37,887 nt of DNA from positions 1-37,887 of the forward strand of contig JACPYM010000102.1 in the NCBI GenBank assembly GCA_016196035.1, read 5' to 3'. The notes under the pieces are model-generated. The model made no database searches, was not told the origin of the DNA, and saw only the letters and a list, made by a program, of their open reading frames with translations. Within the stretch, counting starts at the first letter, position 1; each line of letters begins with the position of its first letter. The position numbers were made by a program, and so were the translations under genes. Positions 1,034 to 36,250 of the stretch are shown in pieces. This DNA is from Acidobacteriota bacterium (lineage in GTDB: Bacteria; Acidobacteriota; Blastocatellia; RBC074).

Positions 1034-1693
1034 ATGAGCAAATCCGATGAGCGGCCCGACCAGCCCGGCAATGATCCGGCAGTGTCGCGTCGTAGCTTTC
1101 TAAAAGGCTCCGGCCTCGCGCTTTCCATCCCGCTACTCGCGGGCGAAACTGTCGAAGCCAAAGCCGCTGCCGAACCTGCCGTGCCGATTCTGGGGCCGAA
1201 CAAGGTAGACATCACCTTGACGATCAATGGTAAGCCGGTCAAGGCCAGCGTCGAACCGCGCGTGACCTTGCTGGATTGCCTGCGCAACGACCTGGACACG
1301 ACGGGCGCCAAGCGCGTCTGTGATCGCGGCACCTGCGGCGCATGCACGATGCAGATGGACGGCAAGCCGGTTTATTCCTGCACGGTGCTCGCCATCGAAG
1401 CGCAGGGTCACAAGATCACCACCGTCGAGAGCCTGGCCGTGGGCGACAAACTGCACCCGGTACAGCAGGCCTTCTGGGACAACGATGCGCAGCAATGCGG
1501 TTTCTGCACGCCCGGCTTTGTGATGGCGTGCAAATCGCTGCTCGACAAACATCCCACGCCGAACGACGAACAGATGCGGCTCGGGCTGGGCGGCAATCTC
1601 TGCCGTTGCGGCACGTACCAGGGCATCAAGGCCGCCGTGGCGCAGGCTTCGGCGGGCGTGAAAGCAATGAAAGGAGGCAAGCGCAATGGCTGA
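1034..1693 (+). CDS. Molybdenum hydroxylase, [2Fe-2S] subunit (YagT/PaoA-like), TAT-exported
   Basis: 219 residues, start fixed by ACGGAGGT at 1021-1028. It is the electron-transfer subunit of a xanthine dehydrogenase/aldehyde oxidoreductase-family enzyme. A twin-arginine signal (SRRSFLKG, residues 18-25, plus hydrophobic segment) implies export of the folded complex to the periplasm, as in E. coli PaoABC. Both cluster sites are complete: plant-ferredoxin-type C96-x4-C101-x2-C104-x11-C116, and the helical-domain site C155-x2-C158 with C190-x-C192. The stop overlaps the next gene by 8 nt, so translation is probably coupled. Substrate cannot be read from sequence; aldehydes or N-heterocycles are typical for the family. 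Confidence 0.93.
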   Translation: MSKSDERPDQPGNDPAVSRRSFLKGSGLALSIPLLAGETVEAKAAAEPAVPILGPNKVDITLTINGKPVKASVEPRVTLLDCLRNDLDTTGAKRVCDRGTCGACTMQMDGKPVYSCTVLAIEAQGHKITTVESLAVGDKLHPVQQAFWDNDAQQCGFCTPGFVMACKSLLDKHPTPNDEQMRLGLGGNLCRCGTYQGIKAAVAQASAGVKAMKGGKRNG

Positions 1694-3848
1694 GTACAAA
1701 TGGCCCGACGCCGAAAAACGCCAATACATCGGCAAGCGCATCTCGCGCATTGACGGCCCGGACAAAGTCAGTGGCCGGGCGAAATACAGCTACGACATCA
1801 ACCGGCCCGGCATGCTCTTTGGCAAGATTCTGCGCTCGCCGCACGCGCACGCCAAGGTCGTCAGCATTGACACATCCGTCGCCGAAAAAATGCCGGGCGT
1901 GAAGACGGTCAAAGTCATCAACGGCCCTGGCTATGAACTGCAATGGGCCGGGCAGGAAATCGTGGCGCTTGCGGCTGAAACCGAATCACAAGCCGAAGAC
2001 GCCGTGCGCGCGATCAAGGTGCAGTACGAAAAACTGCCGCATTTCGTCAACGAAGCGGATCGGTCGAAAGCGCCCGAAAGCTATCTGCGCAAACCGAACG
2101 AGAACGCCACCGGCGATGTCAGCAAGGGTTTTGCCGAAGCGGATGTCACGGTCGAAGGCTTTTATGGCAACGACGTCATCACGCATTGCTGTCTGGAAGC
2201 GCACGGCTTGGTGACCGAATGGGCCGATGACAAGAACGTCCTGATTCACCCTTCGACGCAATCGGTTTCGCCCATTGGCCCGGAACTGGCTCGCGCGTTG
2301 GAAATGCCGGCCAGCAGCGTCCGCGTCAAGATGGATCACATCGGCGGCGGCTTTGGTAGCAAGTTCCCGATTGACATCTGGGGCATCGAGATGACCAAGG
2401 CTTCCAAACAAGCGGGCGGCAAGCCGATCAAGTACTTCCTCGACCGCGATGCCGAATTGGCCGTGGCGGGCACGCGCCCGTCGCTTTACGCCAAGGTCAA
2501 AGTCGCGGCCAAGAAAGACGGCACGATCACCGCGTGGGAAAGCGACGCCTGGGGCAGCGGCGGCATGGGCAACATCAACGGGCCGTTGCCGTATGTGTTC
2601 AGCCGTATTCCGAACACGAAGACCAAGCATCAAACCGTCGCGACCAACGTCGGCCCGCAACGCGCCTGGCGCGCACCCAATCATCCGCAATTAGCCCTCG
2701 TCACCATGAGCGCAATGGAAGATTTGGCCGCCAAGCTCAACATGGACCCGCTCGACTTCTTCCTGAAAAATATCGAACTGACCGGCGCGCGGGCGGTCAC
2801 TTACAAAGACGAATTGATGAAGGCCGCCGAGATGATTGATTGGAAGAAGACCTGGCGTCCGCGCGGCGAAGGCGGTTTGGGCAGCACCAAGACGGTCAAA
2901 CGCGGCTTGGGGCTTTCGATTCACACCTGGCAGGGCGGCCCGCACAACAGCGATTGCGACATCATCATCAATCCTGACGGCACGGCTGAAATCCGCATCG
3001 GCACGCAAGACCTGGGCGTCGGCGTGCGCACCGTGCTCAACATCGTCGTGGCGGAAACCTTCGGCATCCCGCTGGATTGGGTCAAGGTCAGCATCGGCGA
3101 CAATCGCTATCCGGTTTCGGGCGGTTCTGGCGGTTCGACCACCACGGGCGGCATCAGTTCGTCGTCGCGGCGCGGTTCGGTGGATGCGCTGAATCTGTTG
3201 TTTGAAAAAGTCGCGCCTACGCTGGGCACGGCGGCGGACAAGCTGGAAGCCGTCGGCGGCAAGATTCAAGTCATCGGCGACCCCACCAAGAGCATGCCCT
3301 GGAAACAGGCTTGCGCGAAAATCGGCGTGCAACCGTTGGTCGCGCGTGGCAAACATCCCGGTCAGGGCACGCTGGCTTCGGCGGGCGTGGGCGGCTGCCA
3401 AATGGCGGACGTTTCGGTGGACATCGAAACCGGCATCGTCAAGATGAACAAATTCGTCGCGGTGCAGGATTGCGGCCTGGTCATGGATCTGAAGACGGCG
3501 GAAAGCCAAGTCTTTGGCGCGATGATCATGGGCGTGACCTATGCGCTTTACGAAGAGAAAATCATGGACGATCACTCCGGGCGCATGCTCAACGGCAACA
3601 TGGAGTTTTATAAACTCGCTGGTCTGCGCGACATCGGCGAATTCAAAGTCCACATGATGACCGGCCCCGGCTATGACGAACGCGGCCCCATCGGACTGGG
3701 CGAACCGCCGACCAATTCGCCCGGCGCGGCGATCTCCAACGCTGTCGCCAACGCCATCGGCGTGCGCGTGCCAACCATTCCACTAACGCCCGACCGCGTC
3801 CTAGCAGCTTTATCCCAAGCTGGGGCGAAAAAAGAAGGGAGGGGCTAA
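1686..3848 (+). CDS. Molybdenum hydroxylase, molybdopterin-binding catalytic subunit (YagR/PaoC-like)
   Basis: 720 residues, the usual length for the YagR/PaoC type, which lacks the fused Fe-S and FAD domains of eukaryotic xanthine dehydrogenase. Family marks seen: a GGGFGSK cofactor loop near residue 220, the QRAWRAP segment near residue 323, a Gly-rich GGSGGSTTTGG cofactor segment near residue 480, and the conserved GLGEPP motif whose Glu673 aligns with the catalytic base. No own signal peptide is seen, so it should be carried out by the TAT signal on the small subunit. It overlaps both neighbours (8 nt upstream; TAATG overlap downstream), a tight operon. Gene order is small-large-medium, unlike small-medium-large in E. 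coli paoABC. Confidence 0.93.
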   Translation: MAEYKWPDAEKRQYIGKRISRIDGPDKVSGRAKYSYDINRPGMLFGKILRSPHAHAKVVSIDTSVAEKMPGVKTVKVINGPGYELQWAGQEIVALAAETESQAEDAVRAIKVQYEKLPHFVNEADRSKAPESYLRKPNENATGDVSKGFAEADVTVEGFYGNDVITHCCLEAHGLVTEWADDKNVLIHPSTQSVSPIGPELARALEMPASSVRVKMDHIGGGFGSKFPIDIWGIEMTKASKQAGGKPIKYFLDRDAELAVAGTRPSLYAKVKVAAKKDGTITAWESDAWGSGGMGNINGPLPYVFSRIPNTKTKHQTVATNVGPQRAWRAPNHPQLALVTMSAMEDLAAKLNMDPLDFFLKNIELTGARAVTYKDELMKAAEMIDWKKTWRPRGEGGLGSTKTVKRGLGLSIHTWQGGPHNSDCDIIINPDGTAEIRIGTQDLGVGVRTVLNIVVAETFGIPLDWVKVSIGDNRYPVSGGSGGSTTTGGISSSSRRGSVDALNLLFEKVAPTLGTAADKLEAVGGKIQVIGDPTKSMPWKQACAKIGVQPLVARGKHPGQGTLASAGVGGCQMADVSVDIETGIVKMNKFVAVQDCGLVMDLKTAESQVFGAMIMGVTYALYEEKIMDDHSGRMLNGNMEFYKLAGLRDIGEFKVHMMTGPGYDERGPIGLGEPPTNSPGAAISNAVANAIGVRVPTIPLTPDRVLAALSQAGAKKEGRG

Positions 3849-4831
3849 TGCATAACTTTGAATACGCCAGCCCGACCACCAAAGAACAAGCCGTCGCGGC
3901 GCTCGGCGCGGCGTGGGGCGAAACGGAAGCATTGGCCGGCGGCACTGACCTGCTGGCCCTGCTCAAAGATTACGTCGTCACGCCCAAGCGCGTCGTCAAC
4001 CTGAAAGGCATCAAGGAACTCGGCGGCATCACTTACACCGCCGCCAAGGGCCTGCGCCTGGGCGCGCTCGTCACGCTCGAAGAAGTGCTCGACAACGCGG
4101 CGGTCAAACGCAGCTACCCGGCCATCTGGCAAGCCGTCGCCGGCATCACCAGCCCGCAGATTCGCAACATGGGCACGGTGGGCGGTGATCTGTGCCAGCG
4201 CCCGCGTTGCTGGTTTTACCGCTCAGGCTTCGGCTTGCTGCCGCGCACTGAGGACGGCCAGCCGATGGTGGCGACGGGCGACAACCGCTATCACGCGATT
4301 CTGGGCAACAGCGGCGAGGCAAAATTCGTCAACCCGTCATCGCTCGCTCCGGCGCTGGTCGCACTGGGCGCGAAGATCAAAATCTTCGGCCCCGGCGGCG
4401 CGCGCGAAGTGGACGCTGACAAATTCTTCGTCACGCCCAAATCGTCCAGCGAACGCGAGTACGCGCTGCAACCGAACGAGATCGTCACCGACATTCTCGT
4501 CCCGGCCAGCGTCAGCGGGATGAAGAGCGCGACTTACGAGGTGCGCCAGAAAGAGGCGCTGGATTGGCCGCTCGCGGCTGCCGCAGTCGCCTTGACACTG
4601 GACGCCGCCAAGAAGGTCAAGGCCGCGCGCATCACGCTCGGCCACGTCGCGCCGGTGCCCTGGGCTGCGGAGGAAGCCGCCAAATCGCTGCTGGGCAAAA
4701 CCATCAGCGAAGACGCCGCCGCCGCCGCCGGCAAACTCGCCGTCGCCAACGCGCAGGCGCTCTCGCGCAATGCCTACAAAATCCAGCTCGCCAGCGTCGC
4801 GGTCAAACGCGCGTTGTTGCAAGCGGTTTAG
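3848..4831 (+). CDS. Molybdenum hydroxylase, FAD-binding subunit (YagS/PaoB-like)
   Basis: 327 residues. FAD-binding marks include AGGTDLL near residue 30 and the RNMGTVGG segment near residue 107. It passes electrons from the 2Fe-2S subunit to an acceptor. In PaoB-type subunits an insert after this point carries four Cys that bind an extra [4Fe-4S] cluster. Here only C116 and C121 (in LCQRPRCW) remain; the next 40 residues have no Cys, so that cluster is probably absent. The ATG overlaps the stop of the previous gene (TAATG), showing translational coupling. An inverted repeat follows the stop directly. Confidence 0.92.
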   Translation: MHNFEYASPTTKEQAVAALGAAWGETEALAGGTDLLALLKDYVVTPKRVVNLKGIKELGGITYTAAKGLRLGALVTLEEVLDNAAVKRSYPAIWQAVAGITSPQIRNMGTVGGDLCQRPRCWFYRSGFGLLPRTEDGQPMVATGDNRYHAILGNSGEAKFVNPSSLAPALVALGAKIKIFGPGGAREVDADKFFVTPKSSSEREYALQPNEIVTDILVPASVSGMKSATYEVRQKEALDWPLAAAAVALTLDAAKKVKAARITLGHVAPVPWAAEEAAKSLLGKTISEDAAAAAGKLAVANAQALSRNAYKIQLASVAVKRALLQAV

Positions 4832-4895
4832 GGAATAGGGACGAGGGACTAGAGACTAGAAAATACTAGCCCCTAGTCCCTAACTTCTAGCCCCT
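4830..4895. repeat. Heptamer-built inverted repeat (AGGGACTAG type)
   Basis: Degenerate 7-nt units of the form ACTAGGG/GACTAGA run into their inverted counterparts (CTAGCCCCTAGTCCCT) after a very short centre near 4864. It can form a long imperfect hairpin in the transcript between the FAD subunit gene and the next small gene, and ends just before the latter's CTGAGGAG ribosome binding site. Same architecture as the repeats at 5944, 14514, 23517 and 32346 but with a different unit. Confidence 0.65.
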
Positions 4896-4907
4896 GAGGA
4901 GAAAACG

Positions 4908-5144
4908 ATGCCAGAACTCGACAACTTAAATCCGAATCGCCCGAACCTGTGCTCGTCGCTGCGCTGGAAGGGGCTGTTTTACACCGCGACCGAAAAAGAC
5001 CCGGACGTGCAGCCCTCGAATAGTGGCTATTTCTGGTGCCTGCATTCGCAAACCTGCCTGGGGCCGGATGGCGGCTTGGCCGAACCGGGCGAATGCGACA
5101 AACCCACACGCGGCTGCCATAAAGGCGAAGTGCCACTCGCTTGA
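4908..5144 (+). CDS. Small Cys-rich protein linked to the molybdenum hydroxylase operon
   Basis: 78 residues with a good ribosome binding site (GAGGAGAA, 9 nt before the ATG). Five Cys at 15, 44, 50, 63 and 70 and His46/His71 give spacing compatible with metal binding or disulfides (C44-x5-C50, C63-x6-C70). No signal peptide or membrane segment is seen. It follows the FAD subunit by 76 nt in the same direction, so it may be an accessory or electron-transfer factor of that enzyme. I do not recognise the family. Reality as a gene is supported by the ribosome binding site, codon use like its neighbours and the non-random Cys spacing. Confidence 0.65.
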   Translation: MPELDNLNPNRPNLCSSLRWKGLFYTATEKDPDVQPSNSGYFWCLHSQTCLGPDGGLAEPGECDKPTRGCHKGEVPLA

Positions 5145-5271
5145 CGCAGGACACACCCCGGCGCGAACATAGCGCATCGCAGGCCGCGCTTTTCTCCCTT
5201 CAAACATTGGACGGCGAAAAGCGCGGCTGTCATTAACGCCGCTTGTTTTTCAGTTGTAAGGAGAACCGCAA

Positions 5272-5943
5272 ATGAAGAAGCTTTCGTTATTGGTTGCAGC
5301 TAGCGTGTTGAGCCTGTGCGCCACGGCAGCACGCGCCCAGCAAATCACGGGCGAATATGTCGAAACCCGCAACATGGATGTCTATTCGGGCCAATGCTTC
5401 GCCAATTCAGAATCGGGGTTGGTGGGCGATCAAGCGATCATGGCTTGGCGCGTCTCGAAGGGCGAATGGAACGGCGTCAAATTGGACGGCCTGAGCATCG
5501 TCGGCATCACGCGCGGCGCTGAAACGCTCGGCTATCAATTCACCAATCCCTATCCGGCCAAGGCCGTGCTGATTGTGGATGAAAAAGCCAACGCCGAACA
5601 ACGCGAGGCTCTGACCGCCTTTGCCCACACGATGGGTGGCAGATTGTTTGAGACGGTCACGCGCACCGAAACCGCGCCCATCTCATTGCAGATGGAATTC
5701 GAAGGCGAACACCCGACCTACGCGCGCGTCAAGGCGGGCAACCTCGCCGCCATCAGCACGCGCCCCATCACCGACAAAGACAAAATCTGCGGCCACGAAG
5801 AAACACTCTTCAAGCCGCTGACCCCGACCGCGCACGTCATGCCCGCCGTTGCCACGCAGGACGAATTCGGCGGCACGGGCCTCGGCGTCACCTGGTCGCT
5901 GAGCGGCAGACGCAGCGCTTACATCGGGCACTTTGTGAAGTGA
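5272..5943 (+). CDS. Secreted DUF1326-like protein
   Basis: 223 residues, start set by AAGGAGAA 8 nt upstream of the ATG. Residues 1-22 form a Sec signal peptide (KK, hydrophobic core, A-R-A before QQ). The mature N-terminus GEYVETRNMDVYSGQCFANSE resembles DUF1326 proteins, which start with a short strand and a Cys-containing loop. Two Cys in the mature part (near residues 42 and 172) could pair. It may be the last gene of the molybdenum hydroxylase operon (127 nt after the small Cys-rich gene), but that is only inferred from direction and spacing. Function unknown; the family assignment is from memory of its N-terminal pattern. Confidence 0.65.
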   Translation: MKKLSLLVAASVLSLCATAARAQQITGEYVETRNMDVYSGQCFANSESGLVGDQAIMAWRVSKGEWNGVKLDGLSIVGITRGAETLGYQFTNPYPAKAVLIVDEKANAEQREALTAFAHTMGGRLFETVTRTETAPISLQMEFEGEHPTYARVKAGNLAAISTRPITDKDKICGHEETLFKPLTPTAHVMPAVATQDEFGGTGLGVTWSLSGRRSAYIGHFVK

Positions 5944-6049
5944 GACCTCAGACCTCAGACTTCAGACCTCAGACCTATGACCTATGACTCGATCCCATAG
6001 GTCTGAAGTCTGAAGTCATAGGTCTGAGGTCTGAAGTCTGAGGTCTGAA
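5944..6049. repeat. Heptamer array palindrome (CAGACCT / AGGTCTG)
   Basis: About seven tandem copies of a 7-nt unit (AGACCTC and variants AGACTTC, TGACCTA) are followed, after a short centre near 5990-5997, by about eight copies of the reverse complement (GTCTGAR). The whole gap between two genes is this structure. The right arm runs up to base 6049, directly against the ATG at 6050, and includes GAGG at 6040-6043. Tandem 7-mers are prone to copy-number change. Confidence 0.85.
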
Positions 6050-6712
6050 ATGATTCGACAGTTCTGTTTTGCATTGCTGCTCTTTGCGTTCGCGCCGTTG
6101 GCTCTGGCGAAAGGCGGCAACGAGTTCAAACTCGAACCCATCGGCGCACTTACCGAAACCAAAATCGCCGAAGCCGTGCGCTCGACGCTCAATGACAAAG
6201 GCTGGCGCATCAGCGGCAAAGACGGCAAGGTGGTTTGCGAACTCTGGTTCCGCAAAGAGATTCCCAGCCACGAAGGCGGCGTTGACGGCGCCAACTTCGG
6301 CAAGATCAACGAAGGCGCGCTTGTCGGCGTCATCAACTTCCCCAACAAAACGCATGACTTCCGCGATCAGGGCGTCAAGGCGGGCTGGTACACGCTGCGC
6401 TACGGCTTGAGCATGCAGGACGGCGCACATCTGGGCGTCTCGCCCTCGCGCGATTTCTTCCTGCTCTGCCCGCCGGACACTGACACCGACATCAAAGACA
6501 TCCCCGGCCCCGAACTCATCAAACTGAGCCGTGCCGCCATCGGCACCGGCCACCCGGCCCCACTCGCCCTGAATTTCCCGACGCTGAATGAGAAAGATAT
6601 GCCGAAGGTTGTCACCAATGAATCGGAGCACATCATTCTGGAAATCAAGTTGAAGCTGAAGACAGGCGAGTTGGCGATTGGTTTTATTGTGGTGGGCAAA
6701 ACGTCTGAATAA
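6050..6712 (+). CDS. Secreted protein of unknown function
   Basis: 220 residues with a clear Sec signal peptide (residues 1-20, ending A-L-A before KGG). The mature protein is mixed alpha/beta without obvious repeats or catalytic motifs; a hydrophobic patch (LAIGFIVVG) lies at the C-terminus. The only Shine-Dalgarno candidate, GAGG 6 nt before the ATG, is inside the right arm of the heptamer palindrome, so expression may depend on that repeat's state or folding. Same direction as the genes upstream. Family not recognised. Confidence 0.65.
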   Translation: MIRQFCFALLLFAFAPLALAKGGNEFKLEPIGALTETKIAEAVRSTLNDKGWRISGKDGKVVCELWFRKEIPSHEGGVDGANFGKINEGALVGVINFPNKTHDFRDQGVKAGWYTLRYGLSMQDGAHLGVSPSRDFFLLCPPDTDTDIKDIPGPELIKLSRAAIGTGHPAPLALNFPTLNEKDMPKVVTNESEHIILEIKLKLKTGELAIGFIVVGKTSE

Positions 6713-6726
6713 CGTGATTGGACGTT

Positions 6727-7041
6727 ATGAACGCAGTGCAACATCAGTTCAGTATTGTGGTCAGTGAGCAAAGGTGTATCGCAACAGCTTGGCGCAATGA
6801 CCGTGTCTGGGGGCATGCAATTGATATTGAGATTGCTGACAAGGCTGGACGCTTACTAAATCGTGTTGTCTTTGCCTGTCACCCGGAATTCGGCGAGTTT
6901 GACTTATTCCAAGCAAAAACAACCACACAGCTAATCGGTATTGCACGTGAGATGCTCGAATCGGGCCGTTATGAGGAGGAGCTTTTGAAAGCTAGCGCAA
7001 ATCACTTAGAGCTGCTGATAAGGTTAAACAACTCCGACTAA
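6727..7041 (+). CDS. Orphan hypothetical protein
   Basis: 104 residues from the ATG at 6727; a TTG at 6718 is an alternative start three codons earlier. Neither has a convincing ribosome binding site. No signal peptide or membrane segment is seen. Codon use and base composition are visibly more AT-rich than the flanking genes (many TTG, AAA and TTT codons), suggesting recent acquisition. It sits between a secreted unknown and the selenoprotein candidate. I do not recognise it. Confidence 0.5.
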   Translation: MNAVQHQFSIVVSEQRCIATAWRNDRVWGHAIDIEIADKAGRLLNRVVFACHPEFGEFDLFQAKTTTQLIGIAREMLESGRYEEELLKASANHLELLIRLNNSD

Positions 7042-7080
7042 CGAGTGAATGATCCACTTATAGCTAACAACCCACCGCCT

Positions 7081-7431
7081 ATGAAAATCCACTTCTGGCA
7101 AAAAAGCACCTGAACCACCTGCCGCAACGCGCGGAGTTTCCTGCGCGAGAACTTCCAGCAAGAAGACCTGGTCGAACGCGATTACGCCAAACAGCCGCTG
7201 ACCGCCGCCGAGGTCGAAGCGATCTTTGGCGACGACGAGCTTGCGCCGTTTCTGAATACGCGCCACGCCGTTTACAAAGAGCGCAACTTCGCTGCCAAGC
7301 TGCCGCCGCGTGCTGAACTGATCCAACTCATCAGCGCCGAGCCGAACCTGTTGCGCCGCCCCATCGTGCGTCAGGGAAAGCGCGTCATCATCGGCTTCAA
7401 CCAAACGGAATTGAAAAAACTGAGCGGCTGA
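7081..7431 (+). CDS. ArsC/Spx-family selenoprotein (in-frame UGA = Sec11)
   Basis: 116 codons reading through one in-frame TGA at 7111-7113. The translation starts MKIHFWQKST-(U11)-TTC14-RNARSFL, matching the ArsC/Spx/YffB family start where a Cys stands in place of the UGA (K-x-T-C-x-x-C). The rest fits the family: Leu-rich helices, the conserved RRPI segment near residue 96, and a VIIGFN tail. The frame has no further stop until TGA at 7429-7431. A U-x-x-C pair would give a redox-active selenenylsulfide; activity could be arsenate-reductase-like or thiol-redox. No strong ribosome binding site is visible. Conventional annotation would stop after 10 codons. Alternative: a pseudogene with TGC changed to TGA, made less likely by the SECIS-like hairpin and by selA in the same window. 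Confidence 0.8.
7128..7147 (+). promoter_or_regulatory. Bacterial SECIS-like hairpin
   Basis: Inside the selenoprotein frame: CGCGC (7128-7132) pairs with GCGCG (7143-7147), a single U (7142) bulges out, GGA (7133-7135) pairs with UCC (7139-7141), and the apical loop is G7136-U7137-U7138. The loop begins 22 nt after the UGA. Known SelB-binding hairpins (E. coli fdhF) have a small apical loop with G-U and a bulged U in the stem. Here the bulged U is on the 3' side, whereas in fdhF it is on the 5' side. Spacing and loop fit published bacterial SECIS models. Confidence 0.65.
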
Positions 7432-7459
7432 GTGCGTCACCGCTTGTCCAAACGCCGAG

Positions 7460-7504
7460 GACGCCCAGCGCGCCAAGTCAGAATCACTTGGCGCGCTGGG
7501 CGTC
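7460..7504. terminator. Perfect 19-bp stem-loop between convergent genes
   Basis: GACGCCCAGCGCGCCAAGT (7460-7478) and its exact inverted copy (7486-7504) enclose a 7-nt loop. It starts 28 nt after the selenoprotein stop and lies between convergent genes, so it probably ends or protects transcripts. There is no clear U-tract, so it may be a repeat rather than a classic intrinsic terminator. Confidence 0.5.
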
Positions 7505-7571
7505 TTCGCTTTCCGATTAGCTCGGCGCTTGGATCAGTTTGTAATTGAATGTACGGGCGGCACGGTGGGGG

Positions 7572-7659
7572 CAGTACCGCGCGCGTGAGCAAGCGGGGCG
7601 TCAACGCTGGCGGCTTATGGCATAGCCAGAGTCTCCGCTTACTGACGCGCGCGGTACTG
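7572..7659. repeat. 25-bp inverted repeat between convergent genes
   Basis: A left arm beginning CAGTACCGCGCGCGT (7572-7596) is repeated in inverted form at 7635-7659 with two mismatches. A smaller imperfect palindrome (GGCTTATG/CATAGCC) sits in the centre. It has the look of a small non-autonomous repeat; no second copy is in the window. Confidence 0.6.
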
Positions 7660-7702
7660 ACCGGGCGCGCGCCTTTCCCCGTACACCGCTCTGCAATCCA
7701 AT

Positions 7703-9031
7703 CTAAGCCTCGCTGTAACTTTCGCGCACCGCACACGACGGCACGCTGAACTGTTTCAGCCACATCGCCAGCAGCCAAACCAGTCCCGGACTCGCGGACA
7801 ACAACCCTGACACCATCATCATCTGGCGCGGCGTGAAGTAACGCAGCAACAGCCCGCCCGCCAGCATCGAGAGCGTCATCGTCGTCAGTTCCAGCGCCCG
7901 GTCGGTGGTGAAGACGCGCCCGCGATACTCTTCGGCGACCACACGCATCACCAGCGTTTCCTGCACGCCGAATTCCGCGCCCAGAATCGTGCGGCTCGCC
8001 ATCACCGCCAGCGCCATTGTCCACAACGATGGCATCAGCCCAGCACTGGCCCACAAGATGCCGTGCGCCAGCAAGGCCCAGCCGATCAACAGGCCCGCGC
8101 GTTTCTCTTCGGCAGCCCAGGCCCCGGCGCGCCGCGCCAGCATCATCCCAATGAACAAGCCCGCGCCCGCCGCCGTCCAAAGAACCGCCAAGCCCGTATC
8201 ACCGCGATCCCCGACACCGTGCGCAAACTCGTGTCCGGCCATGCGATCAAACAGCAGGTTATTCATCCCGCCGCCCGTCGCCCAACCGACATTCACCAGG
8301 ATGATGCCGCGCACAAAGGGCATGGCCCAGATGTAGCCGAAACCTTCGCGCACATCGCGCCAGAACTTGTTTGCGGCTTTCTCCGGCAAAGCGGCTTCAC
8401 CCTGCGGCGTTTCTGCCTGTCCTATTTCTATTTGTTGTGGCTCCAACGCCGCGCCCGGAATCTGCCAGATGAAATAGGCCGAGGCCACGAACGACAGCGC
8501 ATTGATGACGAACGCGACGTTGTAGCCGAACTTGGCCGCCGTCAATCCGCCCAGCGCCGCGCCCAGCGTGAGTTGCAAAAACCGCGTGCCGAACATCAGC
8601 ACGTTGGCCGTCAACATCTCTTGCCGCGTAGTCACGTTGGCAATCGTGGCGTTCTTGGCCGCCTCGAAAAACGTACCTGTCGAAGTCATCAGCGCCGTAA
8701 TCAGCACGACCGTCCAGGCCGGTGCGCCCACGTTCGTCGTCAGATAGCCCAACGCCAGCACGGCGCGCAGCAAATCCGCCGCGATCAAAATCCGCTTGCG
8801 GTTGCCGCGATCCACCGCCACACCGGCTAGCGGCGAGACCAGTAAAAACGGCAGCGTCCGCGCCACCAGCAAGGCCGCCGTCATCATCGTCGAACCGGAA
8901 AGCAGGCGCATCAAGCCCAATTCGGCAATCGCGGAAAACCACGTGCCCAATTCGCTAATGACCTGCCCAGTCCACAACCGGCGAAAGTTTTTGTTGTTGC
9001 GCAATAGCTCGCTGTATGTCGCGGAATTCAT
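7703..9031 (-). CDS. MFS transporter (EntS/MFS_3-like exporter)
   Basis: 442 residues; the ATG at 9031 is preceded by AGGAGAGGG at good spacing. Hydrophobic segments alternate through the full length, consistent with 12 membrane helices. The N-terminal pattern (N-x-x-F-R-R-L-W-x-G-Q-x-I-S) and the AVDRGNRKRIL loop between helices 2 and 3 are typical of the MFS_3/EntS branch, often exporters of small molecules or siderophores. No siderophore genes are near, so substrate is unknown. A central loop (around residues 195-220) is long and charged. Convergent with the selenoprotein gene. Confidence 0.88.
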   Translation of the reverse strand: MNSATYSELLRNNKNFRRLWTGQVISELGTWFSAIAELGLMRLLSGSTMMTAALLVARTLPFLLVSPLAGVAVDRGNRKRILIAADLLRAVLALGYLTTNVGAPAWTVVLITALMTSTGTFFEAAKNATIANVTTRQEMLTANVLMFGTRFLQLTLGAALGGLTAAKFGYNVAFVINALSFVASAYFIWQIPGAALEPQQIEIGQAETPQGEAALPEKAANKFWRDVREGFGYIWAMPFVRGIILVNVGWATGGGMNNLLFDRMAGHEFAHGVGDRGDTGLAVLWTAAGAGLFIGMMLARRAGAWAAEEKRAGLLIGWALLAHGILWASAGLMPSLWTMALAVMASRTILGAEFGVQETLVMRVVAEEYRGRVFTTDRALELTTMTLSMLAGGLLLRYFTPRQMMMVSGLLSASPGLVWLLAMWLKQFSVPSCAVRESYSEA

Positions 9032-12456: not shown

Positions 12457-13851
12457 ATGTCTCAAGAGTTGCTGCGCCAACTACCCGCGATTGACGTCTT
12501 GCTCAACCACGCGGGGTTGCAAACCTTGATCGAAGCGGCGGGCCGCGACACCGTGCGCGACCGTTTGCGCGAAGTCTTGCAGGAATTGCGGCAGGAGTTA
12601 TTGCAAGACAACGGCCACCCATCAATGCCTGCCGACCTCACGTTCGAAATCGAGCGCCGCGTGCAAACCCGCTTCGCCCAACGCCAGCAAACCCGCACAC
12701 AGCGCGTCATCAATGCCACGGGCGTCGTGTTGCACACGAACCTGGGCCGTGCGCCGCTGAGCGCGCCCGCGCTTGCCGCCCTTCACGAAGCCGCGCGCGA
12801 GTATTGCAATTTGGAATACGACCTGGCGACCGGCCAGCGCGGCAAACGCGGCACGGGTTTGGAAGCGAGGCTGCGCGAACTGACTGGCTGCGCGGCGGCG
12901 GCAGTCGTCAACAACTGCGCGGCGGCGGTGCTGCTCACGCTCAACACTTTGGCCGAAGGCGGCGAGGTCATCGTCTCGCGCGGCGAATTGATTGAGATCG
13001 GCGGCTCCTTCCGCATCCCCGATGTGATCGCCAAATCGGGCGCGCGTCTGCGCGAAGTCGGCACCACCAATCGCACGCGGCTCAGCGATTACGAAAACGC
13101 CATCAACGAAAACACGCGCGTTATCCTGCGCGCGCATCCATCCAATTACCGCATCGTCGGCTTCACTGAAAAACCGGCGTTGGATGAATTGGCCGCACTG
13201 GCGCGCGCGCACAACCTGCCACTGTTTGAAGACCTGGGCAGCGGCTGTCTGGTTGATTTGAACGCCATCGGCATTCACGATGAACCGACTGTCAGTCAAT
13301 CGCTGGCGGCGGGCGCTTCGGTTGTGGCCTTCAGCGGCGACAAACTGCTCGGTGGCCCGCAAGCCGGTCTCATTCTGGGCGAAGCCGAGCTGATCCAACG
13401 CATCAAACGCAACCCGCTGATGCGCGCCTTGCGTGTGGATAAACTGATTTTCGCCGCGCTCGAAGCCACTGTAGCGGCGTATGCTAAGGGTCGCGCGACA
13501 ACTGAAATCCCTACGCTAGCCGCTTTGCATGCACCAAAAGATGTGCTCACCCAGCGTGCCCGCGCGTTCGTGCGACAGGCGCGCAAGTCATTGCCTAACC
13601 TCGAACTGCAATTGCTCGACGGCGACTCTGTCATCGGCGGCGGCTCTGCTCCGGAAATGCGCTTGCCGACGACGCTCATCAGCGTGACCAGTTCACAATG
13701 GCGGGCGGTTGAATTGGAGGAACGGTTGCGCAGCCGGCAGCCGCCCGTTATCGCCCGCATCGAAGATGATCAGCTGGTGCTGGATTTGCGCACGGTCAGT
13801 GCGGCGAGCGAACACGAGTTGTTGCAGGCGTTGACAGACATTGGCAATTGA
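12457..13851 (+). CDS. selA: L-seryl-tRNA(Sec) selenium transferase
   Basis: 464 residues, full length. SelA is the PLP enzyme that converts Ser-tRNA(Sec) to Sec-tRNA(Sec) using selenophosphate. Signature segments are present: the RVINATGVVLHTNLGRAPL block near residue 90, the PLP lysine Lys296 in FSGDKLLGGPQAG, the GGGSAPE(M) segment near residue 395, and the C-terminal ARIEDDQLVLDLRTV. Start is the ATG at 12457, 17 nt after the CysQ-like gene; no strong ribosome binding site, so coupling is likely. No selB, selC or selD is in the window. Its presence shows the organism can make selenocysteine, which supports reading the UGA at 7111 as Sec. Confidence 0.97.
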   Translation: MSQELLRQLPAIDVLLNHAGLQTLIEAAGRDTVRDRLREVLQELRQELLQDNGHPSMPADLTFEIERRVQTRFAQRQQTRTQRVINATGVVLHTNLGRAPLSAPALAALHEAAREYCNLEYDLATGQRGKRGTGLEARLRELTGCAAAAVVNNCAAAVLLTLNTLAEGGEVIVSRGELIEIGGSFRIPDVIAKSGARLREVGTTNRTRLSDYENAINENTRVILRAHPSNYRIVGFTEKPALDELAALARAHNLPLFEDLGSGCLVDLNAIGIHDEPTVSQSLAAGASVVAFSGDKLLGGPQAGLILGEAELIQRIKRNPLMRALRVDKLIFAALEATVAAYAKGRATTEIPTLAALHAPKDVLTQRARAFVRQARKSLPNLELQLLDGDSVIGGGSAPEMRLPTTLISVTSSQWRAVELEERLRSRQPPVIARIEDDQLVLDLRTVSAASEHELLQALTDIGN

Positions 13852-30257: not shown

Positions 30258-32399
30258 ATGACTGCCGCCGCACAAAGCCAACCGAAACCGACCGCTACGC
30301 ATTGCCCATATTGCGCGCTGCAATGCGGTGTGTTGCTGACGGGCGCGCGCGCGGACATCGCGTTACACGGCAATGTGGCATTCCCGGTGAATCAGGGCGC
30401 GCTCTGCATCAAGGGTTGGACGGCCACCGAAGTGCTCAATCACGAAGAGCGCCTGTTGCGCCCGCTCAAACGCAACGCGCGCGGCGTGCTCGCGCCGGTC
30501 GAATGGGATGAAGCGCTCGACACGATTGCGGCGGCGTTCAAAGCCACACAGGCCAAGTACGGACGCGATGCCGTGGGCATGCTGGGCGGCGGTTCATTGA
30601 CGAACGAAAAAGCCTATCTGCTCGGCAAGTTCGCGCGCGTGGCTTTGCGCACGGCGAACGTGGATTACAACGGGCGCTTTTGCATGGCGAGCGCGGCAGC
30701 GGCGGCCAACCAAGCGTTTGGCATTGATCGCGGTCTGCCCTTCCCCGTCGCCGACATCGCAGGCGCGGAAGTGATTTTGCTGGTCGGCGCAAATCCGGCA
30801 GAGACGATGCCGCCCCTCATGCAGCACTTTGAAAAGCAGCGCGCGAATGGTGGCACGCTGATCGTCGTTGATCCGCGCCAGACATTAACGGCACAAGCCG
30901 CGCATGTGCATTTGCGCGGGATGCCCGGCAGCGATGCCGCGCTGGCGAATGGCCTGTTGCATTTGCTCATCCGCGAACAGTTGCTTGACGAAGCCTACAT
31001 TGCGGCGCGCACGGAAAACTTTGCGGCGGTCAAAGCCGTCGCGGCGACGTATTGGCCCGACCGCGTCGAACGGCTAACCGGTGTTAGCGAGTCACAATTG
31101 CTGCAAACGGCGCGGCTGCTCGGTCACGCCCGCAGCGCGATGATCCTGACCGCGCACGGCGCCGAACAGCACGCGCAAGGCGTCAACAACACGCTGGCCT
31201 TTATCAATCTGGCGCTGGCCTTGGGCCTGCCCGGCAAAGCGTGCAGCGGCTTTGGCACGATCACCGGCCAGGGCAACGGTCAGGGCGGACGCGAACACGG
31301 ACAGAAGGCCGATCAGTTGCCCGGCTATCGCAGCATTCACGACGCGGCTGCGCGCCAATACATCGCCGAGGTTTGGGGCATCAACGCGAGCGAACTGCCC
31401 GGCGCGGGCAAATCGGCTTACGAACTGCTGCAAGCCTTGGGCGGCGAGATCAAAGCGCTCTTTGCGCTGGGCTTCAACTTCATGGTTTCCGCGCCTGACG
31501 CCCATCAAATCAGCGCACGACTAAACCAACTCGATTTCTTCTGCACAGCGGATTTCTTTCTTTCAGAGACGGCGCGCGTGGCCGATGTCGTGCTGCCTTC
31601 GGCGCAATGGGCCGAAGAGGAAGGCACGCTGACCAATCTGGAAGGCCGCGTCATTCGCCGCCGCCGCGCGTTGTGGCCGCCGGAAGAAGCGCGCAGCGAC
31701 ATCGAGACGCTCTGCGCCTTGGCCGCGCGCTTGGGTTGCCGCGAACAGTTCAGCTACGCCGACAGCGAAGCGGTCTTCAACGAATTGCGCCGCGCCTCGG
31801 CGGGCGGTCTCGCCGATTACAGCGGCATTAGTTACGCACGACTGGACGCGGGCGAAGCCTTGCACTGGCCTTGCCCCGAAGGCAGCGAAGGTACGCCGCG
31901 CCTGTTCAGCGAAAGCTTCCCGACGCCGACCGGCAAGGCGCGCTTTCACGCCGTGCAGCATCAAGCCGCCGTCGAAGAGCCGGACGCGGAGTTCCCGCTT
32001 TACCTGACGACCGGGCGCGTGCTGGCGCAATACCAAACCGGCGCAATGACGCGGCGTATCGCCAAGCTGAATGCGGCCAGCGGTGAACCCTGCGCCGAAT
32101 TGCATCCGCAAGTCGCGCAACGTTACTGCCTGCAAGCGGGCGCGGCAATCACGTTGGTGACGCGGCGCGGGCGCGCGCAATTCAAAGTCAAACTCACACG
32201 CGGCATCCGGCCCGATACAATCTTCGTCCCGTTTCATTGGGGCGCGGAACAATCGGCGAATCACCTGACCATCGGCGCGCTCGATCCGGTCAGCCGCATG
32301 CCTGAATTCAAAGTCTGTGCGGTGCGGATCGAACCAGCACTTACACAGAATTCTCCATTCTTAACTCTCAATTCTCTGGCAGAGAGACAGCCTAACTGA
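30258..32399 (+). CDS. nasA: Assimilatory nitrate reductase catalytic subunit (NasA/NarB-like)
   Basis: 713 residues. Molybdopterin-guanine-dinucleotide enzyme of the DMSO reductase superfamily, reducing nitrate to nitrite in the cytoplasm; no signal peptide. The N-terminal [4Fe-4S] site is complete: C16-x2-C19-x3-C23-x26-C50. Cys142 in NGRFCMAS is the expected Mo ligand of assimilatory reductases. Later marks: GQGNGQGGREHGQKADQLPGYR (near 335) and the dinucleotide-binding C-terminal domain (LYLTTGRVLAQYQTGAMTRR near 580). It lacks the C-terminal BFD Fe-S domain of some NasA. The last 16 or so residues (QNSPFLTLNSLAERQPN) come from a heptamer repeat. Followed by nirB 76 nt later, confirming the assimilatory role. 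Confidence 0.92.
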   Translation: MTAAAQSQPKPTATHCPYCALQCGVLLTGARADIALHGNVAFPVNQGALCIKGWTATEVLNHEERLLRPLKRNARGVLAPVEWDEALDTIAAAFKATQAKYGRDAVGMLGGGSLTNEKAYLLGKFARVALRTANVDYNGRFCMASAAAAANQAFGIDRGLPFPVADIAGAEVILLVGANPAETMPPLMQHFEKQRANGGTLIVVDPRQTLTAQAAHVHLRGMPGSDAALANGLLHLLIREQLLDEAYIAARTENFAAVKAVAATYWPDRVERLTGVSESQLLQTARLLGHARSAMILTAHGAEQHAQGVNNTLAFINLALALGLPGKACSGFGTITGQGNGQGGREHGQKADQLPGYRSIHDAAARQYIAEVWGINASELPGAGKSAYELLQALGGEIKALFALGFNFMVSAPDAHQISARLNQLDFFCTADFFLSETARVADVVLPSAQWAEEEGTLTNLEGRVIRRRRALWPPEEARSDIETLCALAARLGCREQFSYADSEAVFNELRRASAGGLADYSGISYARLDAGEALHWPCPEGSEGTPRLFSESFPTPTGKARFHAVQHQAAVEEPDAEFPLYLTTGRVLAQYQTGAMTRRIAKLNAASGEPCAELHPQVAQRYCLQAGAAITLVTRRGRAQFKVKLTRGIRPDTIFVPFHWGAEQSANHLTIGALDPVSRMPEFKVCAVRIEPALTQNSPFLTLNSLAERQPN

Positions 32400-32445
32400 G
32401 GTTGCCCATCGCAAAAGAATTGAGAATGAAAAATTGAGAATGGAA
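32346..32445. repeat. Heptamer-built inverted repeat (AATTGAGAATG type)
   Basis: AT-rich units (TTCTCCATTC, CTCAATTCTC) at 32351-32376 are mirrored by GAATTGAGAATG and AAATTGAGAATGG at 32417-32442. The left arm lies inside the nasA frame, and the right arm lies in the gap before nirB. The composition contrasts sharply with the GC-rich genes around it. Confidence 0.75.
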
Positions 32446-32475
32446 AGTGATTTGTATTGAACAGAGGAAATGGCA

Positions 32476-34974
32476 ATGACTCGCAAACAAAAACTCGTCG
32501 TGATTGGCAATGGCATGGCCGGCGCGCGTTTGGTCGAAGACATCATTACGCGCGGCGGGGCCGATCAATTCGAGTTCGTGATGTTCGGCGATGAGCCGTA
32601 TGGCAACTACAACCGCATCTTATTGTCGGGCGTTTTGTCCGGCACCCACCAGGCGCAAGATATTTTTATTAACCCGCTGGCGTGGTACGAAACCAACAAC
32701 GTCAAGTTGCACGCGGGTGCGCGCGTCACCTCGATTGATCGCGTGAACAAAATTGTCATCGCTGCGGATGGGGTAACGACAGAAACGTATGACAAGCTGG
32801 TCATCGCCACCGGCAGTTCGGCGTTTCTGCCGCCGATGGAAGGTTTACGCACAACGACTGACGGATTCAAAGCTGGTGTTTTCGTCTTTCGCACGCTCGA
32901 CGATTGCGAAGCGATTACGCAATACGCTGAAGGCGGCAAGCGCGCCGCAGTGATTGGCGGCGGCTTGCTGGGCTTGGAAGCGGCACGCGGCCTGTTGAAT
33001 CTGGGCGCGGAAGTGCACGTCATTCACCTGATGCCGCATTTGATGGAAGTGCAACTCGACGCGATTGCGGGCGCGACGCTCCGACGTTCGATGGAAGCGC
33101 TGGGCGTGCAGGTGCATTTGAACAAAGCCACGACCGCGATTCTCGGTGATGAACACGTGACCGGCTTGCAATTCAAAGACGGCACGACGCTCGACTGCGA
33201 GATGGTTGTGATTTCGGCAGGCATTCGCCCGAACGTGCAACTGGCGCGTGACGCAGGGCTGACCGTCGAACGTGGCATTGTCGTCAACGATGGCATCACC
33301 TGCGTTGACGACCCGGATGTTTTCGCCGTTGGCGAATGCGCGCAGCACAACGGGATGGTTTACGGCTTGGTCGCGCCGCTCTGGGAACAGACGGCGGTGC
33401 TGGCGGATCGGCTGACCGGGCGCAAGCCGCAAGCGGAATACAAAGGCTCCAAGGTTTCGACCAAACTCAAAGTCATGGGCGTAGACCTCGCGGTGATGGG
33501 CGAGAAACAACCCCGCGATGAACACGACGAAGAGGTCGTTTACACCGAACCACTGCGCGGCATTTACAAGAAGCTGATCGTGCGCAACGGCAAGCTGGCC
33601 GGGGCGATTCTGTTGGGCGATACGGCGATGGCTCCGGCCTTGTTGCAAGCCTTTGATCGCGGCGTGCTCTTGCCGGAAAACCGCGCCGAATTGCTCTTCC
33701 CGTTGACCGATCAAGTCGCGGCCAAGTCCGCTGCCGAGTTGCCGGACGAAGCGCAAATCTGCAATTGCAACGGCATCGCGAAAGGCGCGATCGTCAAAGC
33801 AGCCAAAGGCGGTTGCCGTTCGCTGAAAGCGTTATGCGATGCGACGCGCGCGGGCACGGGCTGCGGCGCGTGCAAATCGCAGGTGCAGGAAATTTTTGAA
33901 GCGGCGGCGGGCGATACGATTGTCGAAGACCCCTCGATTCACTATTACGTGCCGGGCGTGCCGTTGCCCAAACCGGAGTTGATTGCCGCGATCAAAGAAC
34001 AGGAATTGAAAAGCGTCTCCGCCGTTTTCCGCGTGCTGGCTGTTGGAAAAGAAGATCCGGCGAGCAAAGCGGGGCTGGCTTCGCTGCTCAAAACGATTTG
34101 GCACGATGGGTATGAAGACGAACGCGATGCGCGCTTTATCAATGACCGCGTGCACGCGAACATTCAGAAAGACCGCACCTTCAGCGTCGTGCCACGCATT
34201 TATGGCGGCGTCACCACAGCGGCGGAACTAAAACGCATCGCCGAAGTCGCCGAACGCTACAACGTGCGCATGGTCAAATTCACCGGCGGCCAGCGCCTTG
34301 ATCTGCTGGGCATCAGCAAAGAAGACCTGCCCAATGTCTGGCGCGATTTGGGCATGCCCAGCGGCCACGCTTATACAAAAGCTTTTCGCACCTGCAAGAC
34401 CTGCGTCGGTACGGAGTTCTGCCGCTTTGGCGTCGGCGATGCGGTGGCGTTGGGCATCGCGATTGAAAAGAAATATCAAGGCATCGAGTTTCCTCACAAA
34501 GTGAAGCTGGCGACGACCGGCTGCCCGCGCAATTGCTCTGAGGCGACTACCAAAGACATCGGCGCTGTGGCGATTGAAGGCGGCAAATGGGAAGTCGTCA
34601 TCGGCGGCGCTGCCGGATCGAAAGTCCGCAAGGCCGATTTGCTGATCACGGTGGATACGCACGAAGAAGTGCTGCATTACATGGGCCGCTTTATGCAGTA
34701 TTACCGCGAACACGCCAAGTACCTGGAACGCACCTACGACATGGTCGAGCGCATGGGCATCGAGAAACTGCGCCGGGTGTTAGTTGATGATGAAGAAGGC
34801 ATCTGCGCGCGGCTGGACGCGGAAATCGAAGCGGCCGTCGCGGCGTATGTTGATCCTTGGCAAGAGGCTGCACAACCGCATCATCCATCGCAATTCGTCA
34901 ACATTCTGCCAAAGGCGGAAGCGGACGCGATGCTGAGTCAAATCAGCAAACAACCGGCGAATTATGGCGACTAG
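32476..34974 (+). CDS. nirB: NAD(P)H nitrite reductase, large subunit
   Basis: 832 residues from ATG 32476, chosen because GAGG is 8 nt upstream (an ATG at 32470 is too close). Reduces nitrite to ammonium with NAD(P)H in the cytoplasm. Domains: pyridine nucleotide-disulfide type FAD/NAD domain (1-400; IGNGMAG start, VIGGGLLGLEAARG near 158), BFD-like [2Fe-2S] domain (C429-x-C431, C463-x2-C466), and the siroheme/[4Fe-4S] reductase domain with C643-x5-C649 and C683-x3-C687. All cofactor ligands are present. The operon continues with nirD and hemD. Confidence 0.95.
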   Translation: MTRKQKLVVIGNGMAGARLVEDIITRGGADQFEFVMFGDEPYGNYNRILLSGVLSGTHQAQDIFINPLAWYETNNVKLHAGARVTSIDRVNKIVIAADGVTTETYDKLVIATGSSAFLPPMEGLRTTTDGFKAGVFVFRTLDDCEAITQYAEGGKRAAVIGGGLLGLEAARGLLNLGAEVHVIHLMPHLMEVQLDAIAGATLRRSMEALGVQVHLNKATTAILGDEHVTGLQFKDGTTLDCEMVVISAGIRPNVQLARDAGLTVERGIVVNDGITCVDDPDVFAVGECAQHNGMVYGLVAPLWEQTAVLADRLTGRKPQAEYKGSKVSTKLKVMGVDLAVMGEKQPRDEHDEEVVYTEPLRGIYKKLIVRNGKLAGAILLGDTAMAPALLQAFDRGVLLPENRAELLFPLTDQVAAKSAAELPDEAQICNCNGIAKGAIVKAAKGGCRSLKALCDATRAGTGCGACKSQVQEIFEAAAGDTIVEDPSIHYYVPGVPLPKPELIAAIKEQELKSVSAVFRVLAVGKEDPASKAGLASLLKTIWHDGYEDERDARFINDRVHANIQKDRTFSVVPRIYGGVTTAAELKRIAEVAERYNVRMVKFTGGQRLDLLGISKEDLPNVWRDLGMPSGHAYTKAFRTCKTCVGTEFCRFGVGDAVALGIAIEKKYQGIEFPHKVKLATTGCPRNCSEATTKDIGAVAIEGGKWEVVIGGAAGSKVRKADLLITVDTHEEVLHYMGRFMQYYREHAKYLERTYDMVERMGIEKLRRVLVDDEEGICARLDAEIEAAVAAYVDPWQEAAQPHHPSQFVNILPKAEADAMLSQISKQPANYGD

Positions 34975-34980
34975 AACAAT

Positions 34981-35060
34981 GCGGTACGGGGAGCGGTAAC
35001 GACCCGGTTCTGCGAGTGCTACCAAATCGAAGACCAGGTCGCCACCGCTCCCTGTACCGC
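34981..35060. repeat. Family B inverted-repeat element, copy 2
   Basis: GCGGTACGGGGAGCGGTAAC.. (34981-35004) and its inverted partner (35037-35060) match over 24 bp with three differences, enclosing 32 nt. It starts 6 nt after the nirB stop and ends 14 nt before the nirD ATG, so it occupies the whole gap. The arms are close relatives of 21521-21708. Confidence 0.85.
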
Positions 35061-35074
35061 ACCAGAAGATTATT

Positions 35075-35425
35075 ATGAGTACGACAACGACTACGACCAC
35101 CAAACTCGTTCCCACCGATCTGCACTTCAATCTTGGCGCGCTTGCACGCATTCCGCCGGGTGAAGGCAAGGAGTTTGAAATCGCGGGCGAATTGATCGCC
35201 GTCTTCCGTTTGCGCGACGGTCGTGTGTATGCTGTGCAGGCCAAATGCCCGCATCGTGAAGGCGCACTGGCCGACGGCATCACGGGCGGGGGCACGGTGG
35301 TTTGCCCCATGCACAGTTTCAAGTTCGATCTCGCGACGGGCGCGCCACTGGGCCACGATTGCGCGGCGCTGCGGACGTATGCCGTTAGCGTCAATGCTGT
35401 CGGCGAGATCATTCTGCAACTGTGA
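35075..35425 (+). CDS. nirD: Nitrite reductase small subunit, Rieske type
   Basis: 116 residues. Rieske-fold small subunit of NirBD. Unlike E. coli NirD, which has lost the cluster ligands, this one has a full Rieske site: C58-P-H60 and C77-P-M-H80, so it can hold a [2Fe-2S] cluster, as in several actinobacterial and plant-like forms. The start has a run of Thr codons (MSTTTTTTT). No ribosome binding site is visible; the preceding 80 nt is a repeat hairpin, so coupling to nirB would have to pass it. hemD follows after 9 nt. Confidence 0.93.
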   Translation: MSTTTTTTTKLVPTDLHFNLGALARIPPGEGKEFEIAGELIAVFRLRDGRVYAVQAKCPHREGALADGITGGGTVVCPMHSFKFDLATGAPLGHDCAALRTYAVSVNAVGEIILQL

Positions 35426-35434
35426 GCACGTTCA

Positions 35435-36250
35435 ATGAATGGATTAACCGGCAAGCGCGTCGCACTGCTCGAAGCCCGCATGGGCGGCGAGCTAGCAAAT
35501 CTGGTCAAACGGCATGGCGGCGCACCGCAAGTGTTCCCGGCCTTGCGCGAAACGACGCGTGAGGCTTCCGCCGAGACCACGGCGTTGATTGACAACCTGA
35601 CCCAAGGCCAATTGGGCTACATCGTGTTTCAGACCGGCGTCGGCGTGGCTGCACTCCTCGCTGAAGCCGAAAAACTGGGCCGCAAGGATGAACTGCTGAC
35701 GGCGCTGCACTCCGTCACCAAAATTTGTCGTGGGCCGAAACCGACAGCCGTATTGGCACGCAATGGCTTGAAACCCGACGTCAGCGCAGCCGAACCGTTC
35801 ACGACAACGGAGTTGCTGACGGCGTTGGAACCGTTCACGCTCGCCGGGCAACGGGTCGCGCTGTTGCATTACGGCGAACGCAATGCGGCGTTGACCGCAG
35901 CGTTGCAGGCACGCGGCGCGGCGCTTTACGAATTGACCTTGTACGAATGGGAACTGCCGGAAGACGTGACGCCACTGCAAACGCTGCTCGAACAATTGCC
36001 GCAAGGCGCGTTCGACGCGGTGGCCTTCACCAGTCAGATTCAGGCGCGGCATCTGTTCCAACTGGCCGATGTGCGCGGCCAGACGGAGCAATTGTGCGCG
36101 GCCTTGAACGAACGCACGGTGACGGCTTCCATCGGGCCGACGTGCAGCGCGGCGTTACGCGCGTTGGGCGTCGAACCACGGGTTGAACCCGAACACCCGA
36201 AGATGGGGCCGATGGTGTTGGCGCTAGGCAAATACTTCGATGAACACTGA
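35435..36250 (+). CDS. hemD: Uroporphyrinogen-III synthase
   Basis: 271 residues. Cyclises hydroxymethylbilane to uroporphyrinogen III, the branch point to heme and siroheme. The bilobed HemD pattern is visible: GKRVALLEARMGGELANLVKRHG at the N-terminus, the QTGVGVAALL segment (near 69), the second-lobe GQRVALLHYGERNAALTAALQARGA (near 145), and FDAVAFTSQIQARHLF with IGPTCSAALRALGVEP at the end. Lying 9 nt after nirD, it should supply siroheme for NirB; the methyltransferase/chelatase (CysG or equivalent) is not in the window and may be elsewhere. Confidence 0.9.
   Translation: MNGLTGKRVALLEARMGGELANLVKRHGGAPQVFPALRETTREASAETTALIDNLTQGQLGYIVFQTGVGVAALLAEAEKLGRKDELLTALHSVTKICRGPKPTAVLARNGLKPDVSAAEPFTTTELLTALEPFTLAGQRVALLHYGERNAALTAALQARGAALYELTLYEWELPEDVTPLQTLLEQLPQGAFDAVAFTSQIQARHLFQLADVRGQTEQLCAALNERTVTASIGPTCSAALRALGVEPRVEPEHPKMGPMVLALGKYFDEH

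Follow-up and report, generated by a model that had tools for sequence, protein, structure and literature searches.

Selenoproteins of the ArsC family, UxxC forms included, are already catalogued, and this kind of protein is known: a UxxS selenoprotein of the family was described in 2005 (PMC1088965), ArsC-like selenoproteins of Desulfotalea and Desulfuromonas in 2006 (PMC1794560), and a UxxS form together with a UxxC form under cd03032 in 2008 (PMC2398784); ArsC-family selenoproteins are also present in PMC9312934, and UxxS and UxxC forms are given, with the model NF041106, in PMC13188914. Here we describe a putative member of this kind encoded at positions 7081–7431 (+ strand) of a 37,887-nt stretch of DNA from an Acidobacteriota soil bacterium (contig JACPYM010000102.1), which we call the window throughout. 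Likened to the window protein by description is 'Arsenate reductase 2' of the Global Ocean Sampling set (cd03032; PMC2398784), marine metagenome sequences of an ArsC-family protein with UxxC; a preliminary description of the locus, made from the sequence itself, had mentioned ArsC-like selenoproteins as known from metagenome surveys. The Desulfotalea and Desulfuromonas proteins (PMC1794560), again likened by description, are also bacterial and come from another phylum. NF041106 ArsC_rel_Se_1 (PMC13188914) shares with the window protein the ArsC-family (seleno)protein character and the UxxC motif, the window protein scoring under its cut-off. As for the phylum itself, three selenoprotein families were counted in Acidobacteria (PMC1794560) and three known selenoproteins in one Acidobacteriota genome (PMC12013277); since these counts stand without names in the passages concerned, the protein may have been noticed earlier. 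The open literature that we searched, passages of PMC12013277 included, mentions no ArsC/Spx selenoprotein in Acidobacteriota, a phylum across which we find that relatives of the protein recur.

The reading frame, its UGA codon and its relatives

The gene comprises 116 codons plus a stop and runs from ATG 7081 to a normal stop codon, UGA 7429–7431. As the preliminary description had it, a single TGA interrupts the frame, at codon 11 (7111–7113, + strand), the place of the family's first active-site Cys, and is followed by 105 sense codons; C14, RRPI and VIIGFN are all present in the translation. Residue 11, the presumptive Sec, would be the first residue of a UxxC motif completed by Cys14 (codon 7120–7122, + strand), which is invariant in two alignments (9 and 19 rows) and is likely the resolving cysteine. 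The expectation that gene callers would skip such a gene holds for the plain ORF list (80 aa or longer), which misses 7081–7431. An antisense ORF from the same list, 7024–7476, was taken as spurious. By eye, no ribosome-binding site is evident upstream of ATG 7081, and the predicted product shows no obvious export signal.

A stop at codon 11 could also mean a pseudogene or a sequencing error; gene finders would read it as a stop, and a degraded remnant of a related copy lies on contig C41 of the same genome. What speaks against this begins with the relatives. Our close-relative search covered 58 genomes, the window's own counted, and found a match to the gene in 31 of them, including 8 of the 11 genomes of the window's own family (own genome counted again; there was no match in G002, G004 and G009). 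The eighth family copy, in G010, is truncated at a contig end, and all seven full-length copies, spanning five genera, have UGA at the identical codon. The preliminary description had proposed looking for Cys or UGA at this codon in relatives and for stops elsewhere: codon 11 is UGA or Cys, and other in-frame stops are absent from the seven family copies. Downstream of the UGA, comparison of the window with six family copies gave dN of 0.18–0.31, with dS of 0.89–5.4 in five comparisons and undefined in the sixth; judged by these substitution rates, the post-UGA frame is under purifying selection.

In a sample of the phylum, 108 of 396 genomes had a match with an E value no higher than 1e-8. 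Our homologue set consists of 119 stretches, 110 from this search and 9 from the 58-genome search, the C41 fragment of the window's own genome and two short fragments (G045 C57 and G035 C38) having been omitted beforehand. The active site is readable in 114 of them, 55 with UGA and 59 with Cys, counts which, like the p-values derived from them, overstate independence because the rows are related and the active-site motif filter admitted U or Cys only. Five rows were excluded: L106, in which the start of the frame is disturbed and the hairpin described below can still be recognised; L017, truncated by the end of its contig; and L138, L152 and L159, in which the active-site motif is absent. No UGA row has more than the one UGA in its matched frame. 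One of the 55, L114 (G307), has an extra in-frame TAG nine codons past the conserved Cys, which may reflect a pseudogene, an error or recoding; the row was excluded from the hairpin score, which left 54 UGA rows.

The tree, the tally of C-terminal motifs and the test of the SECIS model used 113 rows (without L035; L118 and L131 on the wrong Cys). In a quick tree with the active-site column masked, we counted at least 12 Sec/Cys changes, a rough count because the columns are few and the search was quick; at least 6 changes are forced by starred branches, and the branches that the method marks as well supported deserve less trust. The rows fall into two large parts of the tree. One holds 51 rows (28 Sec, 23 Cys) that keep a C-terminal RP motif; the other, which includes the window with its C-terminal GFN in that place, holds 62 rows (27 Sec, 35 Cys) with GF, GY or similar. 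By this rough count, Acidobacteriota lineages would seem to swap repeatedly between Sec and Cys forms, and the close Sec/Cys pairs offer ready material for asking why some copies retain Sec and others abandon it.

Named genomes yielded 21 loci, 16 of which were read, the other five being repeats of family members; two of the 16 are repeats of Cys rows of family f8. Four of these 16 loci have UGA, 11 have Cys and one lacks the motif, a tally in which UGA forms are under-sampled because one of the two search patterns needed Cys codons. The UGA loci carry labels from outside the phylum: Proteobacteria (L054 and L057), Planctomycetota (L055) and Candidatus Binataceae (L060).

As for the machinery for Sec insertion, whose presence the preliminary description had made a test of its reading, selA, selB, selC and selD were all found in the genome. 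The window itself contains selA, encoding L-seryl-tRNA(Sec) selenium transferase (12457–13851, + strand; TIGR00474 582.5 bits vs. a cut-off of 267.9; PF03841), while selB is on contig C95 (363.7 bits vs. 242.25), a tRNA-SeC with anticodon tca on contig C60, and selD, which likewise has an in-frame UGA (motif CAGUA), on contig C88. This SelD (L044 1501–1700) is therefore a selenoprotein candidate itself. Across genomes, tRNA-Sec was detected in 50 of 55 with a UGA copy vs. 23 of 56 with Cys copies only (Fisher p 2e-8, kinship uncorrected), and in none of the 25 genomes of family f29, whose copies are all Cys. The five UGA genomes in which it went undetected at the threshold used (G081, G251, G264, G286 and G325) possibly reflect incompleteness or an unusual tRNA.

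The hairpin downstream of the UGA codon

The preliminary description had placed a SECIS-like hairpin at 7128–7147, its GUU loop 22 nt past the UGA codon, with a pairing of 5 + 3 bp around a bulged U. The hairpin (+ strand) and its GUU loop at 7136–7138 stand as described, and the bulged pairing turned out to be an alternative and not the RNAfold optimum, which for the 20-nt hairpin has a 7-bp stem and a 6-nt loop, AGUUUC, at −11.2 kcal/mol; the distance of the loop from the UGA is 21 nt in the RNAfold form and 22 nt in the GUU form. As set out in PMC13188914, the published SECIS model has a loop of 3–9 nt, a stem of 4–16 bp and a G in the first two loop positions, 16–37 nt after the UGA and at −7.5 kcal/mol or lower. 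The window hairpin and all 7 family rows agree with this model, which was passed by 41 of 55 UGA rows vs. 16 of 58 Cys rows; in its strict form it was failed by the other 14 UGA rows.

We then scored hairpins with 3–5-nt loops and an early G against synonymous recodings of the same peptide. This restriction was chosen after the hairpins had been seen, and a version without the G rule and a control stretch were added. The window hairpin scored above its synonymous recodings (p 0.006 and 0.005 in two runs). With the G rule, the mean z was 2.10 in the 54 UGA rows vs. −0.01 in the 59 Cys rows, with p < 0.05 in 23/54 and 4/59, respectively; without it, mean z was 1.61 for Sec vs. −0.04 for Cys, with p < 0.05 in 12 vs. 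3 rows, and the control stretch within the same genes gave −0.08 (UGA) and −0.15 (Cys). A rank test of the scores, UGA vs. Cys rows, returned p 4e-15, which is not an honest probability because the rows are related. The association between hairpin and UGA that had been proposed for checking is thus present: hairpins mark UGA homologues far more than Cys ones. The folding energy of the 45-nt stretch that follows the codon, again relative to synonymous recodings, left UGA and Cys rows unseparated (mean z −0.72 and −0.53), codon conservation within the hairpin across seven sequences was suggestive and not significant (p 0.10), and Rfam at gathering scores returned only tRNA in the window (tRNA-Val by ARAGORN).

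Loop registers differ among lineages, lying 17, 21, 22 and 28–31 nt after the UGA. In the 18 rows near the window's register, 4 of 7 stem pairs changed on both sides, with a covariation score of 0.224, compared with 0.098 for shuffles and no more than 0.156 for slid versions; the bulged form scored 0.262 vs. 0.156 for shuffles, and of its three upper pairs flanking GUU, two changed on both sides in relatives, from G-C to A-U. Further pair types in the 7-bp form were not above shuffles (373/500 reached the count), and for the bulged form further pair types were reached by 488/500 shuffles and both-side pair changes by 89/500. Three Cys rows, L018, L019 and L139, have apparent hairpin remnants at the spacing seen in their Sec relatives, with weak scores (p 0.10, 0.10 and 0.39), which may mark Sec-to-Cys changes; remnant SECIS structures in Cys homologues of other families, with Sec/Cys exchange, are described in PMC1794560. 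Strong hairpins in other places occur in a few Cys rows, e.g., L038 (3 or 4 rows with p < 0.05, depending on the run). The hairpin of L060, the locus labelled Candidatus Binataceae, is identical over 20 nt to those of family members G006 and G008, which could be due to transfer or to shared constraint.

Because the UGA/Cys comparison, the hairpin fitting the SECIS model and the Sec machinery in the genome point the same way, we regard 7081–7431 as a selenoprotein gene on comparative grounds, and the decoding of UGA codon 11 as Sec is strongly supported by sequence comparison. The preliminary description's functional selenoprotein gains support from the same three lines. Purifying selection past the UGA, the conserved hairpin and the Sec machinery add to the shared UGA codon in making a pseudogene or sequencing error hardly tenable. 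For a selenoprotein gene, the hairpin, with its loop 22 nt downstream, would recruit SelB carrying GTP and Sec-tRNA(Sec), and the ribosome would therefore insert Sec at the UGA and not stop.

Family, fold and predicted function

With U read as C, the product matches PF03960 ArsC at 62.6 bits vs. a gathering cut-off of 24. Its best NCBIfam matches are Spx and ArsC models, each scoring under its cut-off: the Spx models of the NF002459/TIGR01617 set (63.4 vs. 123 and 61.2 vs. 75.05), TIGR00014 arsC (44.6 vs. 106.05) and NF041106 (34.4 vs. 85). Among ten homologues compared with the last model, the window included, nine score 20.4–38.0 and one is unlisted. The subfamily cd03032, to which the marine sequences were assigned, is presumably an ArsC/Spx subfamily. 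An AlphaFold model built from 19 aligned sequences has a mean pLDDT of 94.2 and a pTM of 0.82; a Foldseek search with this model put Spx at the top (1z3e, E 6.1e-11), and VIA-align gave Z of 16.5 for both Spx 6gho_A and the ArsC-related protein 3gkx_B, against 13.6 for the arsenate reductase of E. coli. We consider it very probable that the gene encodes a small thioredoxin-fold oxidoreductase of the ArsC/Spx family with UGA codon 11 decoded as Sec. In such an enzyme, the selenolate of Sec11 would attack an oxidised substrate (a disulfide, sulfenic acid or similar), Cys14 would resolve the Sec11 intermediate as an Se–S bond, and thioredoxin or glutaredoxin would recycle the Se–S form, a cycle and a substrate class that we deduce from the family's UxxC site.

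A selenium-dependent arsenate reductase, in which Sec11 would attack arsenate and arsenite would be released for export, is suggested by PF03960, which is the ArsC family, and by the surveys, which use the name arsenate reductase for UxxS and UxxC selenoproteins. Several observations make this reading improbable. The arsC model TIGR00014 scores far under its cut-off, Spx structures outscore the E. coli enzyme, and the C-terminal RP motif is replaced by GFN in the window. In E. coli ArsC, Arg107, the arginine of the RP motif, binds arsenic, and the C-terminal arginine motif RPxE is part of the definition of glutaredoxin-type arsenate reductases. The E. coli enzyme (1i9d, 1jzw) shares with the window protein the fold, the position of the nucleophile and an RP segment, at 17–21% identity, and differs in that the window protein lacks the C-terminal arginine motif and has a second Cys. 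An arsenic exporter or regulator is absent among the window genes scanned nearby, and no arsenic gene appeared in the one downstream ORF taken from each of three relatives. Arsenate reduction is therefore unlikely, and a thiol/selenol oxidoreductase is the likelier of the two; the preliminary description was right to leave an arsenate or general thiol-redox role open, and the evidence leans to thiol redox.

The fold brings in a second possibility, a selenium-containing regulator like Spx in which a Sec11–Cys14 redox switch would alter binding to RNA polymerase. By sequence, Spx proteins are the nearest relatives of solved structure, Spx chains including those in complexes with RNA polymerase are among the top fold matches, and the RRPI and GYN-like segments match Spx. 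Bacillus subtilis Spx (1z3e, 3gfk, 6gho, 7f75) shares the fold over the whole chain (Z 15.5–16.5, 31–32% identity) and has CxxC and a like RRPI segment, the window protein having Sec for the first Cys. Set against this, the Spx models stay under their cut-offs, the product has 116 residues and lacks the C-terminal extension that ends the 131–132-residue Spx chains, and a function does not follow from a shared fold, so that we hold a regulatory role of this kind doubtful. Still more speculative, and a little less probable, is the extended proposal that an Spx-like protein acts as a selenium redox switch on RNA polymerase, with the UGA tying its level to selenium and lineages toggling between Sec and Cys; were it true, the toggling would be a natural series on what selenium buys. 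Our preferred reading remains the oxidoreductase.

Gene neighbourhood and nearby repeats

Upstream of the gene and on the same strand, the window contains a cluster that starts with a molybdenum hydroxylase of three subunits (1034–4831; Fer2_2, MoCoBD_1/2 and FAD_binding_5), namely the 2Fe-2S (1034–1693), MoCo (1686–3848) and FAD (3848–4831) subunits. It continues with a 78-aa Cys-containing small protein (4908–5144; no Pfam match; syntenic in 4 relatives at 54–83% identity), a DUF1326 protein (5272–5943; PF07040, 55.9 bits; syntenic in 5 relatives) and a 220-aa protein (6050–6712; no Pfam match), the conserved upstream neighbour of the UGA gene; the last two have signal-peptide-like starts by eye. 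Synteny of the hydroxylase extends to 4 relatives, in a comparison that covered only the FAD gene and the final part of the MoCo gene. The conserved cluster corresponds to 1686–6712 of the window and to L049–L051 and L053 in relatives.

The 220-aa gene was detected in 7 of 14 genomes searched. Of the seven full-length family copies of the UGA gene, six have it upstream, at a distance of 5 to 368 nt. The UGA gene is preceded by the 220-aa gene and then the DUF1326 gene in the window and in G001, G003, G005, G006 and G008; four relatives with longer flanks have the 78-aa gene and the FAD and molybdopterin subunits farther upstream. Only 7 nt (G003) and 5 nt (G005) separate the stop of the 220-aa gene from the start of the UGA gene in two relatives, which suggests an operon; the gap is 70–151 nt in G006, G008 and G001, and 368 nt in the window, where it contains a 107-aa ORF. 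We did not find the 220-aa gene in G007; G004 has it, and tblastn of the fetched flank returned no copy of the UGA gene. This arrangement suggests that the gene is expressed together with a cluster whose products include exported proteins, and does not name a substrate.

At 7460–7504, 28 nt past the stop of the gene, lies a perfect inverted repeat (arms of 19 bp, loop of 7 nt) that may be a terminator. The decayed second copy in the same genome lies at 17052–17189 of contig C41 (L002 1504–1632) and is 56% identical over 43 residues, its C-terminal part alone being recognisable. A repeat of about 180 nt follows both the gene (about 7532–7709) and the C41 fragment (L002 about 1851–2029), in inverted orientation and with copies 72% alike, and is perhaps a mobile or REP-like element. 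Farther along the window, 30258–36250 resembles by eye what we take to be a nitrate assimilation cluster, with genes that are presumably nitrate reductase-like, nitrite reductase-like, Rieske-like and uroporphyrinogen synthase-like.
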